Source: a virus. From it: a DNA stretch of 20,446 nt. A program made the translations under genes and the position numbers. The stretch's first letter is position 1, and every line of letters begins with the position of its first letter. Below are positions 1 to 16,311 of the stretch, in pieces. Under the pieces are notes generated by a model. That model worked only from the letters and a program-made list of their open reading frames with translations, was not told the origin of the DNA and made no database searches. The stretch covers positions 1-20,446 of IMG/VR virus record IMGVR_UViG_3300031851_001839, one strand, 5' to 3'.

Positions 1-1819
1 CATTGTTATATCTCTTTAGTAAAGTATCAAACTCTCTAACTCTATCGCTACCAACAACCATAACAACTCTATGGTAATCATCATATAGTTTTACTAAAAT
101 ATCTAATACATTGTTTGATGGATTGATCTCTATATTTCTAGCATGTGTACGAAACATTTGTTTCATTAAACGTAATTTATATCTAACGTCTAATGGGTTC
201 TTTTTAGGGTCTTCACTTCTACTTAAATATATTTTATAATCTCTAGCTTGTGTTTTAACTTTATCCATCAACTTTTGATGACCTATTGTTGGTGGATTAA
301 ATCTACCAAAAGTAAATGCTATTGTTTTAGGTGCTGAAGCTTCATGCATTTCTAAATCTTTTATTTCTTTATCTGAAACTTTACCATCTTCTAAAATTTC
401 TTTACACTTCCTATAGAATTTTAAGTAGTGATATTTTTCTAGGTACTTGTAGATAATATTTTTAGGTAGTTTATGTTTTTTACCAAACTGTCTAATCTCA
501 TCTGGTGTCATATCGTCATTGAAAGCACTTTGTCTTTGTTTGACTACATCATCACCTATATCAACTAATACCTCTATACTGTCTTCTATCTCGTCTAGTT
601 TAGTGTTAATTTTGTCTTGTAAGTTCAACACATCATCTGTTGTTAAATCTTTTAGTTCTTCGTAATCAATTAAATCTCTAGCTAGTTCACCTTTGACTAC
701 ATCTATCTCTTTTACTTTTTTCTGAAAGTCAGCTTCATATTTTTCTGAATCAAAAGTATCTTCGGTAGGTCTTCTTACAAATTCGTTTTCGTCTATATCA
801 TAAACACCATCAGCCATTGCGTCATTCTTTTTCTTTAATTCAGGATCGGTAATAACATAATAGTTGATTGGGTGTTGAGTACCTGGAACAAGTTTACCAT
901 TTATGCTTCTTAAACTAGATGCTAATTCTTTTCTAACTTCTTCTCTATCTTTTTCTGGAACATCAAACAAGATATTCATATCTAAATCTGCATCGTCTCT
1001 ATATCTTTTTGTAAGTATAGAACCTATCAATGAATATTTTTTTACTGGATACTTCTCTTGGAATTTATCTATTTGATTTAAGATAATATCTCTAACACTT
1101 TGTTTAAGTTTAGGATTGTTAGTATCAGCGTCATCAAATACACCTGGCGCATATCTTTGTCTAGGTATATCAATGATACTTTCTACAAATGATTCTCTTA
1201 ACTGCATGTCAGGATATATTTGTTTTGCTAGTTTTACAGATGCCTCATGGTCTGATGGATAATGCCAACCAGCATATAATCTACCCTTACCACATTCTTC
1301 AGCTGCTTTAATTAAACCATCTTTATGATTAGGATATTTTTCTATGCAATATTCTGCTACTAACCTAGATTGTAAACTATGACCTGCTGGATACGCTGGT
1401 GTTTTCATTGTATCACTATCAAGTGGCATGTTATCAAAGTCCATCTTTAAAGCTTCGGCTAAGTTGTAAGGTCTAGGTCTTTGAAATTTGTTTTTATAAT
1501 ATCTTACAATAGCACTACCAAGACTTACAATTTTATTAATATCGTTATCGCTGTAATCTAAATCTTTATCTTTTAAATATTTTTTTATTGCATGAGAAAC
1601 ATCTAAATCGTGAGCTTTTACACTATCCTCAATCTCACTAGTTCTCTTACTCATTAACTCTTTTAAAATATTAAGTTCTGCTAGTGAAGCTTTACTACTA
1701 TTAGTAGGTGGTGGAGATATAGATAACTTTTTATATTTGCCCTTAAAATTTTTTACAGGCTTTTCATCTACCTTTGCGTGACGTAAACTATCTATATTTG
1801 TAAACTCTTTAAATCTCAT
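1..1819 (-). CDS. PAP2 phosphatase / pol-beta-like nucleotidyltransferase / HIGH-type nucleotidyltransferase fusion (3' end outside window)
   Basis: Reading the minus strand from an ATG at 1819 gives 606 uninterrupted codons to the window edge, so the C-terminus is missing. Three enzyme regions are visible. Residues about 70-200 carry all three PAP2 acid-phosphatase motifs: K109-x6-R116-P117, PAGH at 144-147, and GR-x5-H-x3-D at 179-190. Residues about 255-325 look like a minimal DNA-pol-beta nucleotidyltransferase, with G266-S267, ten residues, then DLD at 278-280. From about 498 a cytidylyltransferase/NMNAT-like Rossmann domain begins, with FGRFNPPTIGH (504-514, the HIGH-type motif) and VVGSDRVREF (588-597). 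A charged, probably helical linker (about 360-490) separates the last two. The N-terminus MRFKEF resembles a phage capsid-targeting leader. The start overlaps the upstream kinase stop (ATGA), so translation is probably coupled. Domain calls are firm; substrates and the pathway are unknown. Confidence 0.85.
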   Translation of the reverse strand, partial: MRFKEFTNIDSLRHAKVDEKPVKNFKGKYKKLSISPPPTNSSKASLAELNILKELMSKRTSEIEDSVKAHDLDVSHAIKKYLKDKDLDYSDNDINKIVSLGSAIVRYYKNKFQRPRPYNLAEALKMDFDNMPLDSDTMKTPAYPAGHSLQSRLVAEYCIEKYPNHKDGLIKAAEECGKGRLYAGWHYPSDHEASVKLAKQIYPDMQLRESFVESIIDIPRQRYAPGVFDDADTNNPKLKQSVRDIILNQIDKFQEKYPVKKYSLIGSILTKRYRDDADLDMNILFDVPEKDREEVRKELASSLRSINGKLVPGTQHPINYYVITDPELKKKNDAMADGVYDIDENEFVRRPTEDTFDSEKYEADFQKKVKEIDVVKGELARDLIDYEELKDLTTDDVLNLQDKINTKLDEIEDSIEVLVDIGDDVVKQRQSAFNDDMTPDEIRQFGKKHKLPKNIIYKYLEKYHYLKFYRKCKEILEDGKVSDKEIKDLEMHEASAPKTIAFTFGRFNPPTIGHQKLMDKVKTQARDYKIYLSRSEDPKKNPLDVRYKLRLMKQMFRTHARNIEINPSNNVLDILVKLYDDYHRVVMVVGSDRVREFDTLLKRYNN

Positions 1820-2499
1820 GTTCTTTGTTTTGCTTTTAATTCGTTTGCTATCCATTGTTTAGCTGTTAGATTTTGAGGACTAGCTCTCAATTGACTTCGT
1901 ATATATCTCGCAGCTGTGTTAAGTGTTAGTGTTACTAATTCTTTTTCACTTTTATTGTTATCAACAATTAACATTCTATTAGGACTAAAAATTCTTTGAA
2001 ACTGACCAATGTTTCTTTGTACTTGATTCCAACTATTAGTTACAATGTATTCTGGTATAGTTCTAGGTCTATTTTTATTTCTTTCTAATGCCACTTCTAA
2101 ACTTGTATTAACAAAGATCATATAACTATCATAACCTATGGTGTCTAATTGTCTTTTCTGACTATTGATTGTATTTAAATCTCTGCCAGTTGCGTCAATA
2201 ACTAAACCTAATCTTCCTTGTATGTAAGTATCTAATTGAGTAGAAGTAGTCATCTTTGCTTTAGCTCTTACAATGTTTCTAAAGTATTCTTCTTCGTCAG
2301 GCATCTTTAATGATAGATTGCCTTTTTTCATAGCTCTTTCAAATGCTGCGTCAGAGTTAACAGTCTTTAATCCTGTACCACCAAAGGCACCAGCTGTTAC
2401 AAATGATTTACCACTTCCAGGTCCACCAGCTAAAAAGAAAGCTTTAAATATACCTGGGTCATAAACACCCTCTCGCAATATTTGATTTAGTTTTTTCAT
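1816..2499 (-). CDS. Zeta-toxin-like P-loop kinase
   Basis: This 227-residue protein has a Walker A motif, GGPGSGKS (25-32), directly after a hydrophobic strand (FFLA). It is followed by NSD (48-50), where zeta-toxin and polynucleotide-kinase-like enzymes keep a catalytic Asp, and by a VIDATGRD strand near residue 100 typical of this kinase clan. Many marine T4-like phages carry a similar protein annotated as zeta-toxin family. A nucleotide or polynucleotide kinase is the most economical role, since no antitoxin partner is visible. The N-terminus MKKLNQILREG contains an LxE-G sequence that could be a prohead-protease site. The gene starts as TAATG on the upstream stop and ends as ATGA on the downstream start, so it sits inside a tightly coupled late operon. 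The fold is confident; the substrate is unknown. Confidence 0.8.
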   Translation of the reverse strand: MKKLNQILREGVYDPGIFKAFFLAGGPGSGKSFVTAGAFGGTGLKTVNSDAAFERAMKKGNLSLKMPDEEEYFRNIVRAKAKMTTSTQLDTYIQGRLGLVIDATGRDLNTINSQKRQLDTIGYDSYMIFVNTSLEVALERNKNRPRTIPEYIVTNSWNQVQRNIGQFQRIFSPNRMLIVDNNKSEKELVTLTLNTAARYIRSQLRASPQNLTAKQWIANELKAKQRT

Positions 2500-2846
2500 T
2501 AATTATTTACTTTTGCTCCAGCTCTCCATTGATAACAAGACCAATATCTTGCCATAGTTTTTGGTCCTGGATCAGCGCAATTGTGTCTTGCTCTAAATGA
2601 CTTTCTTCTCGCTGGATTATCTCTCTTAATAGATAGACCAGTTGTATCACCAAATGATACTTTCTTAATCTTATCGCCATCTTTTACATATACATAAAAC
2701 TTTTTAGAACCACCTCTAATTGGGTCGTTTAATTTTACTTTTTTACCTTGATACTCTGCCTCTTGTAAAGGCTCGTTTTCATGTTCAAATATTACTTCTT
2801 CACATTGTATATCATAATCTTCAAATTGTTTAAATGTTTTAGCCAT
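2499..2846 (-). CDS. Conserved phage protein of unknown function (two-Cys C-terminal motif)
   Basis: This 115-residue protein has two parts. The N-terminal 35 residues are acidic and begin MAKTFKQF, again like a capsid-targeting leader. The C-terminal domain (about 45-110) is basic and contains KKFYVYVKDGDKIKKVSFGD followed by RRKSFRARHNC (80-90), PGPKT (93-97) and RYWSC (100-104). I recognise this arrangement, with paired Cys90 and Cys104, from hypothetical proteins of other marine T4-like phages, but I know no function. The cysteines could bind metal or form a disulfide, which is inference. It overlaps both neighbours by one base (TAATG junctions), so it is probably made in step with the ligase-like and kinase genes. 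Confidence 0.75.
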   Translation of the reverse strand: MAKTFKQFEDYDIQCEEVIFEHENEPLQEAEYQGKKVKLNDPIRGGSKKFYVYVKDGDKIKKVSFGDTTGLSIKRDNPARRKSFRARHNCADPGPKTMARYWSCYQWRAGAKVNN

Positions 2847-4063
2847 TAATTACTCCATCCTTTTGGCATTGTAAAGTTAGCTCTACTAAATTCCATTCTG
2901 TCAACTAACTTAACTGCTCCTGCTATTTTATCTACTGCTACATATCCTTCTGGACTTGTTACTCTATAACCAGTAGAAGTTTTTAAAAAATGTCCTATGC
3001 TTTGTATTTCACTCATCTTCTTTATCAAAAAGTCTTTAGCATTTTGTAACGTAACGTGTGAGGCAACAGCCATCACTAAAGCATTTCTATTTCTATCTAT
3101 AAATTTTAAATTTGTTGCTAATATATCTTTGTACTTTTGTTTTCCTTTATCTGTCTTCTTACTATCAATCTCTGCTTGTAGAATATTAATATAATAATCT
3201 CTAAACATATCCACTAAAGTTCTAACTTTGGCCATATGACCTGATGATCCTCTTATGTGATGATTAAAGAAAGTTTTTAATCTAAACCCTACACCCAAAC
3301 CATCAGCAGATGTTTCACTCATTTTATCTAACAAAGGTGCTGCCTTTGATAGTGAGCCTTCGGCCATTCTTAATTTTGCGTTAAATTGTGCTAGTTCGTT
3401 TCTTGTAAGTTTCGCAGAACCAGATACATCTTTGTAACCAGCACTCGCTAAAAATACATTAGTTGCTCTACCTCTAACTGTACCAAAACCAGCTGTCATA
3501 CTATCTAAAGTTTTACCTGTATATTTTGTGTGAAAAACAATTCCCATTCTTGCTCTACTAATCTGTCTACCAATACTAGAGTTTGCTTGAACAGCATATG
3601 TAATTGTATTAGGTGTAAATGAAATCATATCGTCACCATCTAAACTAATCTTTTTTAAATCTGATTGTGAGAAAAGAAAGTCGCCTTGTAATACGCCTTT
3701 AATACCTAGACGTTTTAATTCTTTTAATGCTATTTGAAGTTTAGACGCTAATTCGCCAGAGTGATTTTTACTTATATCTGCGTTAGTGTAATTTACTTTA
3801 GGATTTTTATTGAATACTGATTTTGTACCGACAAAGAATTTGTCGTTTTCTGGATTAATACCACAGATGATAGCTGGTGCGCCATCCCATTTAACTGTCA
3901 TATTAACTTTTTTACTAGAAGAACCTGCGAGCATATCTCTCACCGATCTTAAAAAGTTTAACGCATTTTGTCCACCTTTTGTACCACGATTTATTATATC
4001 GTCTTCTAGGTGTTCTAAATGTGTATTTCTATCTTGTGTTGTAAATCCTTTAAAACTAAACAT
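2846..4063 (-). CDS. Ligase-like (KWDG motif) conserved phage protein
   Basis: This 405-residue protein belongs to a family common in marine T4-like phages; I believe databases call it DUF6267, from memory. The sequence suggests a covalent nucleotidyltransferase (polynucleotide ligase/capping) fold. K58-W-D60-G61 follows a strand (VNMTVKWDGAPAIICG) in the manner of ligase motif I (KxDG). FVGTKS (77-82) sits where motif Ia is expected. GVLQGDFLFS (123-132) resembles motif III, GIVFHTKY (174-181) motif IV, and GFRLKTFF near residue 260 could be motif V. The motifs are in the right order, but motif III has Asp rather than the usual Glu. Residues from about 270 look helical and may be an accessory domain. 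The start lies about 60 bases below a T4-type late promoter, making this the first gene of a late operon. That the gene is real is near certain; the ligase assignment is moderate. Confidence 0.8.
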   Translation of the reverse strand: MFSFKGFTTQDRNTHLEHLEDDIINRGTKGGQNALNFLRSVRDMLAGSSSKKVNMTVKWDGAPAIICGINPENDKFFVGTKSVFNKNPKVNYTNADISKNHSGELASKLQIALKELKRLGIKGVLQGDFLFSQSDLKKISLDGDDMISFTPNTITYAVQANSSIGRQISRARMGIVFHTKYTGKTLDSMTAGFGTVRGRATNVFLASAGYKDVSGSAKLTRNELAQFNAKLRMAEGSLSKAAPLLDKMSETSADGLGVGFRLKTFFNHHIRGSSGHMAKVRTLVDMFRDYYINILQAEIDSKKTDKGKQKYKDILATNLKFIDRNRNALVMAVASHVTLQNAKDFLIKKMSEIQSIGHFLKTSTGYRVTSPEGYVAVDKIAGAVKLVDRMEFSRANFTMPKGWSN

Positions 4064-8395: not shown

Positions 8396-8424
8396 ATTAT
8401 ATATCATTCTACTTAAAATGTCAA
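8396..8424 (-). promoter_or_regulatory. Sigma70-type promoter for the uvsX operon
   Basis: On the minus strand TTGACA (8424-8419) and TATAAT (8401-8396), both perfect consensus, are separated by exactly 17 bases. The -35 box overlaps the stop codon (TGA) of the upstream gene. It reads into uvsX. This is a host-RNA-polymerase early/middle promoter by sequence. Confidence 0.85.
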
Positions 8425-8738
8425 CCCTTAAAGTCATCATCTTTATCCATCATTTTATCATAATATAGTGCTGGTAAATGTGCTTTACCCTCACCTTCTA
8501 CTCTCAATTTAGGATCCTCTGGTACATAACCTTTTCTTGGCTCTTCATAGTCTTCAGGTTGTACTCTTGTCCACAATATCTCTTTTAATTTGTCTAACGA
8601 AACCATACCAAAGTCATTATAGACTCTGTTTTGAAATCTATCAGCCATATGATATATTAACTCTTTATTATAAGCTATCTTACGTTGATAATCGTAATAC
8701 TCTTTCAAATCTTCGTACTTCGTTTTTGGTATCGCCAT
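8421..8738 (-). CDS. Small charged protein of unknown function
   Basis: This 105-residue protein is highly charged. It has a helical N-terminal half (KYEDLKEYYDYQRKIAYNKE, then LIYHMADRFQNRVYNDFGMV) and a Pro/Glu-rich C-terminal half ending in an acidic MDKDDDFKG. No motif or family is apparent to me. It follows the CmoA-like gene by 11 bases, with no strong ribosome-binding site, so its translation probably depends on that gene. Its stop codon lies inside the -35 box of the uvsX promoter. Codon use matches its neighbours. Confidence 0.6.
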   Translation of the reverse strand: MAIPKTKYEDLKEYYDYQRKIAYNKELIYHMADRFQNRVYNDFGMVSLDKLKEILWTRVQPEDYEEPRKGYVPEDPKLRVEGEGKAHLPALYYDKMMDKDDDFKG

Positions 8739-8749
8739 AGAAATATTTA

Positions 8750-9427
8750 TTATTTCTTTAACGCAACGATACCAACGAAATTAAAGTTCTGCCAAAAAGT
8801 ATGTATTTCAAAGCCAGCATCTTGTACCATTTTATACAACTCTGTTTTTGTATTTGGTTTCATCATATGCCTTAGCGTTACTTCTTTGTCAAGTATTTCT
8901 TTATCAGAAAAGTGTTGTCTTTTATAATCATAAAACATAAAGGTCATCATATCTTGTACCCTTGGATTACAACTAAAAGTTTTTTCTGAAAAGATAAACG
9001 CACCACCAGTATTAAGACCTTTGTAAATTTTATTAATTACTTCTTGTCTATCTTTTGGTGACATAAATTGTAAAGTAAATATAGAAGTAACCAGAGAACA
9101 GTTTTTAAAATCAAACTCTCTTACATCACCTCTAAAATAATTTAGTTGATGATACTTCTCCTCATCATGTGAATAGTCACCAAAAAAATCTTCTTCTATT
9201 TCTATACCTGTGTATTGTGCGTGAGGAATATTCTTATTGTTTTGTTCTATCATACCTTTTAATAGTTTACCTGAAGAACAACCCATATCAACAACTTGCG
9301 TATAGTCTTCTACGAAATATTTTGATAGGTTAAGTATATCACCCCATAAATGACTATAACCACGAACAGATTTATCTATGTGATTATCAAAGCCTTCCTT
9401 ACTTGTAGCAAAAGTAAATTTAGTCAT
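8750..9427 (-). CDS. CmoA-like SAM enzyme (candidate carboxy-SAM synthase)
   Basis: This 225-residue class I methyltransferase-fold protein aligns, by recall, over its whole length with bacterial CmoA, which turns SAM plus prephenate into carboxy-SAM. Shared landmarks are SVRGYSHLW (CmoA SVPGYSN), VVDMGCSSGK (46-54, SAM motif I), RGDVREFDF (99-107), SIFTLQFMSPKDRQ (115-128), INKIYKGLNTGGAFIFSEK (131-149), DYKR (167-170), and the final NFNFVGIVALK. By my alignment, CmoA Arg199, which holds the carboxylate of Cx-SAM, falls on Glu182, while an Arg appears one turn later (Arg186). The product is therefore uncertain. No CmoB gene is visible. It overlaps the cytosine methyltransferase stop by eight bases and has its own AAGGAG site (9440-9435), so the two proteins are probably co-produced. 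Alternatives are a plain SAM methyltransferase or a tRNA wobble-modification role. Confidence 0.8.
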   Translation of the reverse strand: MTKFTFATSKEGFDNHIDKSVRGYSHLWGDILNLSKYFVEDYTQVVDMGCSSGKLLKGMIEQNNKNIPHAQYTGIEIEEDFFGDYSHDEEKYHQLNYFRGDVREFDFKNCSLVTSIFTLQFMSPKDRQEVINKIYKGLNTGGAFIFSEKTFSCNPRVQDMMTFMFYDYKRQHFSDKEILDKEVTLRHMMKPNTKTELYKMVQDAGFEIHTFWQNFNFVGIVALKK

Positions 9428-10583
9428 TGTTTAACTCCTTATATGGTTTTAACACTTTGTTATATACACTTTCAGCAAGTGCCTTCATCATCAACGGTGG
9501 AACCATACGACCTATCCGTTCTGATTGTTGTTTATGTTTACCTGTCAATTTAAAGTCTTCAGGTAACGACATAATTCTTTTCAATTCTTTTATAGTAAAC
9601 TTTCTGTCTTCTATTGGGTGGCAAGTACCAGCAACACCAGCAAGATTACCCATCGCAGTAATTGTTGGACAAGGTTTTCTTAAACTTGATCTTTTTAAAT
9701 TAAAGTGATGACCTTTCTCGTGGTAGTCCATACCAGTCAATACTTTGTCTGGATCCTTTGGCATTTTCATTAATGTTTTACCAACAGCCTTTTCTGGACT
9801 AATCTTATCAAACAAATAATCTAGTTCTTCTTTATCTTCATTTACAATATCATTAATTGCTTCGCCAAGTGTAGTTCTAAAATCATTCTTATCAGGATAC
9901 AATTGATACATAGTCATAAAGTTTATACCGACTTTCTCAGCAACATCTTCTCTTACACCTATAAAGAAACATCTTTTACGAGATTGTGGTACACCAAAGT
10001 AACTTGAGTCTAATACATCAGCAACTATATGATAACCAATTTCTTCAAATGTATTTTGTATCTTGTGAAAATACTCTTTGGCTTCACCCATAGTCAAACC
10101 TTCAACATTCTCACCAATAATAACTTTTGGTTTTATATCTTTAGCCACTCTTAAAAATTCAAAGAATAAATCTTCTACATTTTCTACACCTTTAATATCA
10201 CTATACTGTTTCTTTTTACCAAACGCATCTGCGTGAGTTCTACCCTCACCGTGAGATACAGAACCAGCCATACTAAACGCTGAACAAGGAGGAGAGCCAT
10301 CTAATATATCTAACTCACTCACTTTAACTCCAGCTTGTTCCATTAGATATGTACCTGTCAATTTTTTTATATCGCCTGGCACAATTGTAGTATTAGGATA
10401 ATTTTCTCTATATGTATTTTGTGCTTCTTCAACAAATTCATTAATCGCTAGTATCTTACCACCAGCCAATCTATAACCAGTTGATGAACCACCACCACCA
10501 GCAAAAGTTGATAGAACATTGAATAGTGCTTTTTTCTCACTATCTAATGTATCTTTTAATGTATATCTTTTATAATTGTTCAT
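9420..10583 (-). CDS. DNA cytosine-C5 methyltransferase with motif X Asn replaced by Arg
   Basis: This 387-residue protein has the C5-MTase motifs in order. Motif I is STFAGGGGSS (25-34), IV is PPCSAFS with nucleophile Cys100, VI is ENV (158-160), VIII is QSRKR (200-204), then a target-recognition region (about 211-300), IX is RKPCPTITA (302-310) and X is GRMVPP (358-363). Two cofactor-pocket positions are unusual. Ser101 is where M.HhaI has Gln82, and Arg359 is where nearly all family members have Asn (M.HhaI Asn304, GNSVPP). Arg359 is codon CGT, read directly. It has its own sigma70 promoter and overlaps the CmoA-like gene. No restriction nuclease is nearby, so the role is genome modification or protection. 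Whether it transfers methyl or a carboxymethyl group is the key open question. Confidence 0.93.
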   Translation of the reverse strand: MNNYKRYTLKDTLDSEKKALFNVLSTFAGGGGSSTGYRLAGGKILAINEFVEEAQNTYRENYPNTTIVPGDIKKLTGTYLMEQAGVKVSELDILDGSPPCSAFSMAGSVSHGEGRTHADAFGKKKQYSDIKGVENVEDLFFEFLRVAKDIKPKVIIGENVEGLTMGEAKEYFHKIQNTFEEIGYHIVADVLDSSYFGVPQSRKRCFFIGVREDVAEKVGINFMTMYQLYPDKNDFRTTLGEAINDIVNEDKEELDYLFDKISPEKAVGKTLMKMPKDPDKVLTGMDYHEKGHHFNLKRSSLRKPCPTITAMGNLAGVAGTCHPIEDRKFTIKELKRIMSLPEDFKLTGKHKQQSERIGRMVPPLMMKALAESVYNKVLKPYKELNND

Positions 10584-10661: not shown

Positions 10662-11198
10662 TCAAACTTCATTCCCCCAACTAGTCCAGCCTTCTCGTTT
10701 TCTACGAGCAAATAACTCAATATAAGGCCCAGGTAACATCTTCTCAATATGGTTATATACTATATCTGGTTTTCTACTGTGTTCTCGTCTTTGGTCCACA
10801 ACTAATTGTGGTATACTTTTATTTAGCCTTTTAGGTTTCCCACGAGTTGCCAATAAACACATTTCTGGATTACCTCTGGTCCAATAACCAAGACCTGTAA
10901 AGAAACCCATTTTGATACGATTCGTTTTCGCCCAAGTAAAACCTACTGTCTTGTACTTAAAACCCCACGCATTGATTACTTCAAATGCTTTATCTAGTAA
11001 AGGGTCAACTACCCACATTAAAAGGACTGCATCGTCCTTAGCAATTCGGTCAACAGGTAACCGAATAATGTCAGCGATAGACATGCAAGGATAATGTCTT
11101 TCAGGGCTTTTATCTTTTCCTTTGTTACTATACGTTTTAAACGTCCAAGGTGGATCTGCATATATTACTCCATGTTTTTTGTTTGTATTAAATTCCAT
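10662..11198 (-). CDS. MT-A70 family DNA N6-adenine methyltransferase
   Basis: This 178-residue protein is an MT-A70-type methyltransferase with catalytic DPPW (15-18, in GVIYADPPWTFK). It continues with HYPCMS, a segment VLLMWVVDPLL, the strand YKTVGFTWAKTN, and the C-terminal SAM-site region EHSRKPDIVYNHIEKMLPG with PYIELFARRKREGWTSWGNE, all typical of the family. Phage enzymes of this type usually make N6-methyladenine in DNA to evade host restriction. The target site cannot be read from the protein. It overlaps the tiny membrane-protein gene upstream by 11 bases and precedes the promoter of the cytosine-modification pair. Confidence 0.92.
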   Translation of the reverse strand: MEFNTNKKHGVIYADPPWTFKTYSNKGKDKSPERHYPCMSIADIIRLPVDRIAKDDAVLLMWVVDPLLDKAFEVINAWGFKYKTVGFTWAKTNRIKMGFFTGLGYWTRGNPEMCLLATRGKPKRLNKSIPQLVVDQRREHSRKPDIVYNHIEKMLPGPYIELFARRKREGWTSWGNEV

Positions 11199-14817: not shown

Positions 14818-16311
14818 TTATTTCTTTTCAAAGCCAACCTTATCTTCTTTACCATCTTTTTCAATGGGTTTTAGTCTCTTACTTAATACAAATGTTCTAT
14901 TAGGGTTGACACTAATATTCATTAATCGCATTAAATCTCTATTTACAAGTAAGTCAGAGCCTGATCTAGGTCTTTGGTCTAAACCAATCTCAACATCTTT
15001 ATATGTAAAACCATTAAATGTTAAGTCCATTAATATAGTTGGTCTAATCTCTGATGGTTCATCTGTTGCATTTGATCTAAACACTTCACTCTTTCCATGT
15101 CTAGGTTTGCTATAAGTCTTACCATCATATTTCCATTTAACAATCTTACCATCTTCTAAAATTTCGTCTGCGTGTAAAGCACAAGCAGCTGAACCATTAC
15201 CAGTATCAAACTTAACTCTTACTTTACCTACTTCATCTAACTCAACAGTTTCTAACCAACCAGTTTCTATAAGTGATTGTCTATCCCAATGAGCTCTATC
15301 TGTAATATAATCTACTACATTGGCCATCATTTTTTCACCATCTATTCTACCAGCTGGTTCTGCGTCAGCATAATAATCTCTATGTTGATAACCTTCATAA
15401 TCAGCGCCTGATCCAGGACTACCATTAATCTCTAATAGATATGGTTTGTTTTTAAATATGATGTGATCTACACCTACCATATAAGCTCTAGATAATCTAG
15501 CTGCCTTTAATACGAGTTCTCTTTCTTCATCACTCAAAATATAAGGTGATGCCTCTGCGCCTCTATGTGTATTTGATCTAAAGTCATAAGAGCTGTGAGT
15601 TCTTTTTGTACTAGCGAATATTTTATTATCTACCACAAACGTTCTTATATCAAAATCTGAAGGCATATATTCTTGTATTAGAAGTTCTGCCTCTAGTTTC
15701 CACATCGCTTGCACAGTCGCCACAAGGCCTTCGTAACTTTCTATTTTGATTACTCCTACGCCTTGTGTTCCTGTTAGTGTCTTTAAGATTACGGGAAATT
15801 TCCCACCAATCATATCTAAGCCACTTTTAATATTGTTTTCGTTTGAAATGAATGCTGTTTTAGGCATTGGTAATCCAAACTTCTCAAATAATAATGCTGT
15901 TGTTAGTTTGTTATCACAAGTTAGCATTGAAGCTCTTGTATTCATCATAAAAGCTTGTGAGTTTTGAAATGATGATATTAAAGAAAGACCTGCTTCATTT
16001 TCAAGTGCGCCACCTCTAACTATACAACAGGTATCTCTACCAACGAAAGTATGTTCACCTTGTTTACCGTCATAGTTATAAACAGTAAGTGTACCTTTGT
16101 CTTCGTCTTTAGCTGTGATGATAGTTGAATTGATGTTTACAATAATACATTTGATACCTTTTTTCTTACACGCTTTTTGTATAAGATCGGCAGTAGTGTT
16201 TTCTTTTGGATCTTTAGAGTCAGCCACAGTTACCATAGCAACTGTAATAGGCTTATCTTTACGACCTATATCTGTTTCTGTAATAAACTCTTTAAACTTC
16301 GGTACTTGCAT
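14818..16311 (-). CDS. RimK-like ATP-grasp ligase fused to RimB/retropepsin-like domain
   Basis: Residues about 20-335 form an ATP-grasp enzyme of the RimK/glutathione-synthetase type. The region FPVILKTLTGTQGVGV (172-187) is the nucleotide-binding loop, DIRTFVVD (221-228) follows, and metal ligands lie in LLEINGSPG (292-300: Glu294, Asn296). Such enzymes join an amino acid or peptide to a carboxylate. Residues about 350-480 resemble the RimB / DUF785 family: GWLETVEL (351-358), VKFDTGNGSAACALHAD (366-382, with Asp369-Thr-Gly) and DLLVNRDLMRLM near 453-464. In cells RimK adds glutamates to ribosomal protein S6 and RimB trims them, so one phage chain may do both. The N-terminus, KFKEFITE, is very like the T4 capsid-targeting sequence. 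It overlaps regA by 20 bases. Target unknown. Confidence 0.85.
   Translation of the reverse strand: MQVPKFKEFITETDIGRKDKPITVAMVTVADSKDPKENTTADLIQKACKKKGIKCIIVNINSTIITAKDEDKGTLTVYNYDGKQGEHTFVGRDTCCIVRGGALENEAGLSLISSFQNSQAFMMNTRASMLTCDNKLTTALLFEKFGLPMPKTAFISNENNIKSGLDMIGGKFPVILKTLTGTQGVGVIKIESYEGLVATVQAMWKLEAELLIQEYMPSDFDIRTFVVDNKIFASTKRTHSSYDFRSNTHRGAEASPYILSDEERELVLKAARLSRAYMVGVDHIIFKNKPYLLEINGSPGSGADYEGYQHRDYYADAEPAGRIDGEKMMANVVDYITDRAHWDRQSLIETGWLETVELDEVGKVRVKFDTGNGSAACALHADEILEDGKIVKWKYDGKTYSKPRHGKSEVFRSNATDEPSEIRPTILMDLTFNGFTYKDVEIGLDQRPRSGSDLLVNRDLMRLMNISVNPNRTFVLSKRLKPIEKDGKEDKVGFEKK

Follow-up and report, generated by a model that had tools for sequence, protein, structure and literature searches.

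DNA cytosine carboxymethylation has been described in the Synechococcus phage S-B43, where both the biochemistry and the structure have been reported (Yang et al., Nat Commun, December 2025; PMC12783734). In this phage SpCmoA makes carboxy-SAM (Cx-SAM), the sole cofactor accepted by SpCmoX, which forms 5-carboxymethylcytosine at GC motifs, a modification that blocks HhaI (PMC12783734). SpCmoX has been crystallised with Cx-SAM (8YF3). Arg350, at the position of Asn304 in M.HhaI, contacts the carboxymethyl group, and mutation of this residue to asparagine (R350N) leaves the enzyme inactive with either cofactor (PMC12783734). Glycine is attached to the carboxymethyl group by the third enzyme of the system, CmoY, and 5-glycylcarboxymethyl-dC (5gcxmdC), but not free 5cxmdC, was found in the virion DNA (PMC12783734). 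CmoX is defined there by SPPC together with the arginine, and a search of IMG/VR v4 is described that gave 5,615 candidates (PMC12783734).

Here we describe a 20,446 nt marine virus fragment (IMG/VR record IMGVR_UViG_3300031851_001839, positions 1 to 20,446; hereafter the window), whose relatives are the Pelagibacter phages Mosig and HTVC008M and the Methylophilales phage Melnitz. Two overlapping genes in it are very probably a CmoX-CmoA cassette with which a T4-like marine phage carboxymethylates the cytosines of its own DNA. The chemistry of such a pair is already published, and the window is a further member, from a branch apparently without the published ligase CmoY. Since the survey drew on IMG/VR v4 and the window is the same kind of record, its sequence may already be among the candidates counted there.

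The gene pair and its surroundings

The two open reading frames paired in a first-pass annotation are present where it placed them, and the overlap of eight bases that it gave is exact (Table 1). A ribosome-binding-like AAGGAG in the end of the methyltransferase (MTase) gene is eight bases 5' of the cmoA ATG. The overlapping pair recurs in dozens of separate marine contigs and is therefore not a chance arrangement. In one window-like contig a gene for ~230 amino acids is inserted between cmoX and cmoA (L032:3803-4498).

Table 1. Position of the gene pair and its neighbours in the window
Feature	Position	Strand	Basis or remark
CmoX homologue, predicted DNA cytosine C5-carboxymethyltransferase (387 aa)	9420..10583	-	Pfam, phmmer, 8YF3 alignment, AlphaFold model
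Phage-type CmoA homologue, predicted carboxy-SAM (Cx-SAM) synthase (225 aa)	8750..9427	-	Identity, E. coli CmoA, model
Arg359 codon, motif X GRMVPP	9507..9509	-	Alignment; coordinates derived from ORF
cmoX/cmoA reading-frame overlap, eight bases	9420..9427	-	AAGGAG before overlap, in cmoX end
MT-A70 adenine methyltransferase gene	10662..11198	-	Next upstream of cmoX; conserved neighbour
105-aa protein	8421..8738	-	Immediately follows cmoA in most window-like loci

Both enzymes are shared with S-B43 (59% and ~55% identity for CmoX and CmoA, respectively), as are the SPPC, the carboxylate-binding arginine and the closeness of the genes. The order in S-B43, however, is cmoA-cmoY-cmoX, with the glycine ligase between, whereas in the window cmoX overlaps cmoA and there is no cmoY. 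The CmoA and CmoX of the Synechococcus phage S-CRM01 are 57% and 56% identical to those of the window and their genes also overlap, but the order is cmoA-cmoX and the pair lies beside clamp-loader genes, whereas that of the window lies beside MT-A70 and uvsX.

Neither a CmoA nor any PF00145 protein was found in Mosig, the nearest DNA relative, so that within this group of phages cmoX-cmoA is an accessory cassette. HTVC008M gave no match for CmoA, PF00145 or RimK. The neighbouring MT-A70 gene was considered as the carboxymethyltransferase, but this is unsupported; as the gene is also present in Mosig, without CmoX and CmoA, it is not a dedicated part of the system. Elsewhere in the window are a DUF6267 protein (2846-4063, minus strand), with a KWDGAPA motif that resembles a nucleotidyltransferase/ligase active site, and, two genes from it, a P-loop kinase of the Zeta_toxin/AAA_33 type (1816-2499, minus strand). 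These two proteins are possibly involved in nucleic acid end repair.

The methyltransferase-family protein resembles SpCmoX

The larger protein belongs to the C5-MTase family (PF00145, E 4.9e-57). Among solved structures SpCmoX is by far its best match (8YF3; phmmer E 5.8e-141, 473 bits), with the next scoring 73 bits, and the identity of 59% extends over 372 residues. All nine of the SpCmoX residues checked in this alignment are kept. Phe25, Glu47, Phe48 and Asp69, which contact the Cx-SAM, correspond to Phe27, Glu49, Phe50 and Asp71, and Ser95, Pro96, Pro97, Cys98 and Arg350 correspond to Ser97, Pro98, Pro99, Cys100 and Arg359. As the first-pass annotation had noted, PPCS stands where M.HhaI has PCQ, and motif X reads GRMVPP (358-363), with Arg359 for the asparagine. 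The SPPC is at 97-100, followed by Ser101, and Arg359 is at the position of M.HhaI Asn304 and SpCmoX Arg350. The motif X asparagine (GN.V) of ordinary SAM-dependent C5-MTases is thus not present. A basic residue at this asparagine likewise enables the use of Cx-SAM in M.MpeI N374K (PMC12783734), though there it is an engineered lysine in a CpG-specific enzyme, whereas in the window it is a natural arginine in a dedicated one.

The AlphaFold model (pLDDT 87) aligns to 8yf3 with a Z score of 46.2 and an rmsd of 1.8 Å over 331 residues; against methyltransferase structures Z is 32.0 at most. The protein therefore has what we would look for in a CmoX: a fold nearest to 8YF3, SPPC with the catalytic cysteine, the equivalent of Arg350, the Cx-SAM contacts and a CmoA neighbour. 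In the C-terminal stretch from 270 to 345, which is expected to hold much of the target recognition, 43 of 70 residues are identical to SpCmoX, and from this it would seem likely that the window CmoX has GC specificity. The GpC observed/expected ratio of the window is 1.00, with no depletion as a trace of modification, and is uninformative.

The partner is a phage-type CmoA

The second protein is 53-57% identical to the CmoA of S-B43 and S-CRM01. It had been proposed to be a CmoA homologue along its length, and this is borne out by a full-length alignment with E. coli CmoA (4iwn; phmmer E 3.5e-30), a match to TIGR00740 (E 1.6e-34) and a model with a Z score of 28 to the CmoA structures 4gek, 4iwn and 1im8. 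E. coli CmoA (4gek, 4iwn), with which it thus shares its fold, is itself a Cx-SAM synthase, in which Arg199 forms a salt bridge with the Cx-SAM carboxylate (PMC3663124). In place of the E. coli pair Arg199/Glu203, however, both the window protein and SpCmoA have glutamate and arginine (Glu182/Arg186 in the window): the charges are swapped and the arginine comes four residues later. Glu182 and Arg186 are both within one helix of the model (175-188). The swap is common to SpCmoA and 126 aligned sequences and is seen in most phage CmoA of the family, while the E. coli arrangement is retained in the CmoA of PaBG and of the Erwinia and Yersinia phages.

On TIGR00740 the window protein scores 119.7 bits against a curated cut-off of 193.3. 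SpCmoA, a proven Cx-SAM synthase, also falls under this cut-off, with 115.6 bits, and curated CmoA cut-offs were therefore dropped as a test. As it misses the cut-off, as SpCmoA does, and has Glu182 in place of Arg199, we file the window protein as phage-type, on its full-length homology and the Glu/Arg pair in one helix, rather than as the bacterial equivalog.

The residue at motif X tracks the partner gene

The first-pass annotation had suggested asking whether a basic residue at motif X occurs together with CmoA. Relatives of the MTase were collected from viral contigs whether or not a CmoA was present, and the residue at motif X and the genes nearby were then noted. CmoA accompanies 66 of the 72 Arg-type MTases. 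Of the six exceptions, four have less than 200 bases left on the downstream side of the MTase, and in two the sequence on one side is shorter than 1.4 kb; where 1.5 kb could be read on both sides CmoA is present in every case (30/30). None of the Leu-type MTases (GLMVAP, SPPCPP) has a CmoA (0/57), but 49 of the 57 have a Tet_JBP dioxygenase like that of Melnitz, the corresponding figures with 1.5 kb on both sides being 0/20 and 15/20. No TET/JBP dioxygenase was found near the Arg-type MTases (0/72). The Leu type is a single clade on the MTase tree (99/100), so the segregation of Arg with CmoA represents few evolutionary events and Fisher p-values overstate the evidence. The contrast is not reported in the main text of the published survey, which describes a selection for the arginine first (PMC12783734).

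Among more distant lineages, PaBG and Mcat8 also have an Arg-type MTase with a CmoA homologue close by. In the Erwinia phage Y3 and the Yersinia phage fHe-Yen9-02 the arginine is within LGRICVP or LGRVCVP and CmoA is ~13-17 kb away. In both of these phages the CmoX is interrupted, immediately ahead of the catalytic cysteine, by an intein-like insert (SPP|CFTE...VVHN|CKGFS; L241:79-2271 in Y3 and L242:166-2244 in fHe-Yen9-02).

Could the window pair nevertheless be an ordinary SAM-using DNA cytosine methyltransferase, beside a CmoA homologue that serves tRNA modification or depletes SAM? Membership of the C5-MTase family would fit with this, as would the PHROGs label of tRNA methyltransferase on the 8750-9427 product. 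Against it, the motif X arginine is that of SpCmoX, which accepts only Cx-SAM (PMC12783734), the segregation of Arg with CmoA is complete, the genes overlap and no CmoB-like protein was found among the window proteins scanned. We consider this explanation very unlikely.

The MTase of Melnitz, a related T4-like phage, is 45% identical to that of the window and adjoins the DNA polymerase gene, but it has leucine at the position of the arginine, with SPPCPP, and a TET/JBP dioxygenase takes the place of CmoA. Leu-type relatives of CmoX with a Tet_JBP gene nearby are present in Melnitz (L004:4010-6194) and 49 viral contigs, and the pair is apparently, and presumably functions as, a pathway from 5mC to 5hmC. 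The likeness to Melnitz would allow the window MTase to belong to such a pathway. With no Tet_JBP protein in the window, where the two 2OG-Fe(II) oxygenases match other Pfam families, and no TET among the 72 Arg-type loci, that is extremely improbable.

Staphylococcal pairs with glycine at motif X

CmoA also occurs with a C5-MTase that has glycine rather than arginine at motif X (VGGVINQ) and PCQ for SPPC. Such pairs were seen in staphylococcal phages or prophages (L231:5983-7682, L006:5950-8468, L246, L247 and L249) and in a metagenome contig (L248). Each of the genomes of PhiSepi-HH3 and vB-SscS-F1 has a single C5-MTase, which directly adjoins CmoA in the former and is one AsnB-like gene away from it in the latter; an AsnB-like ligase accompanies the pair in both F1 and L248. 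In L248 (4274-6184) CmoA and a CmoY-like ligase occur with two C5-MTases side by side, the motif X residue being arginine (GRTV) in one and glycine in the other. Those relatives without CmoA that could be read (L250-L252, L254) have the usual AGNS or AGNG. It is possible, judging from these sequences, that the Gly-type MTase is a second type of Cx-SAM-dependent DNA transferase, and it is outside the published SPPC-plus-Arg definition of CmoX.

The ligase and the final base

CmoY, which is AsnB-like (PF00733), was not found in the window, nor beside any of the 72 window-like CmoX genes. A PF00733 protein was likewise not found in 16 records that resemble the window, all of them fragments and the longest 37.7 kb, or in the complete genome of S-CRM01, which has both CmoA and CmoX; the search that gave none in S-CRM01 did give matches in S-B43 and PaBG. 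Among the cyanophage-like CmoX (59-64% identical) CmoY is common, with 24 loci. At least one complete genome therefore has the system in a form without an AsnB-like ligase, and from its fragmentary records the window branch looks to be without one as well.

With CmoY absent from the window, the window-like loci and S-CRM01, the final base may be free 5-carboxymethylcytosine. We suggest tentatively, as a possibility rather than an expectation, that this is the end product in this marine T4-like branch, which would then have free negatively charged bases and no amide ligase step, unlike S-B43. The carboxymethyl group may instead be only a handle, to which a CmoY encoded outside the fragment, or the RimK-like protein of 14818-16311, couples an amine, giving an amide as in S-B43. 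This has not far short of an even chance. It is the amide, and not 5cxmdC, that is present in S-B43 virion DNA (PMC12783734), a ligase could lie elsewhere in the genome of which the window is a fragment, and the RimK-like gene is ~4 kb from the cmoX-cmoA pair. On the other hand, PF00733 is missing from the 16 records, the 72 neighbourhoods and S-CRM01, and RimK is present in Mosig and Melnitz, both without CmoA, and absent from S-CRM01 and S-B43. On this distribution the RimK-like ligase is not favoured as a dedicated substitute for CmoY. The protein itself (minus strand) is of the ATP-grasp type with a C-terminal extension, and its Mosig homologue is 34% identical. An amide end product is compatible with the pair being a CmoX-CmoA cassette, as it concerns the final base only.

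Discussion

For the window itself we observed the sequence, the residues, the fold, the gene arrangement and the co-occurrence of Arg with CmoA. The combination of a Cx-SAM source with a C5-MTase basic at motif X, put forward as a hypothesis in the first-pass annotation, is now published fact for the close relative S-B43, from which the chemistry, the arginine contact, the GC specificity and the HhaI resistance are known (PMC12783734). With identities of 59% and ~55% to the S-B43 pair, the enzymes of the window would be expected to act in the same way, at GC sites, and in this branch possibly with no ligase following.

CmoA would convert host SAM and prephenate to carboxy-SAM. CmoX would then flip a cytosine out of newly made phage DNA, Cys100 would attack C6 and the carboxymethyl group would be moved to C5, while Arg359 holds the Cx-SAM by its carboxylate. 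The phage DNA would carry 5-carboxymethylcytosine, probably at GC steps, and this base would protect it from host restriction.

Beyond the published work, the analysis adds the test of the Arg/Leu contrast, the apparent branch without the ligase, the charge swap in CmoA and the staphylococcal lead. Within one MTase family a single residue of the cofactor pocket tracks the partner enzyme, arginine with CmoA and leucine with TET/JBP. The window widens the known range of this newly discovered modification to include pelagiphage-related marine phages, and it points to a branch without the ligase, in which the carboxymethyl base may undergo no further change.
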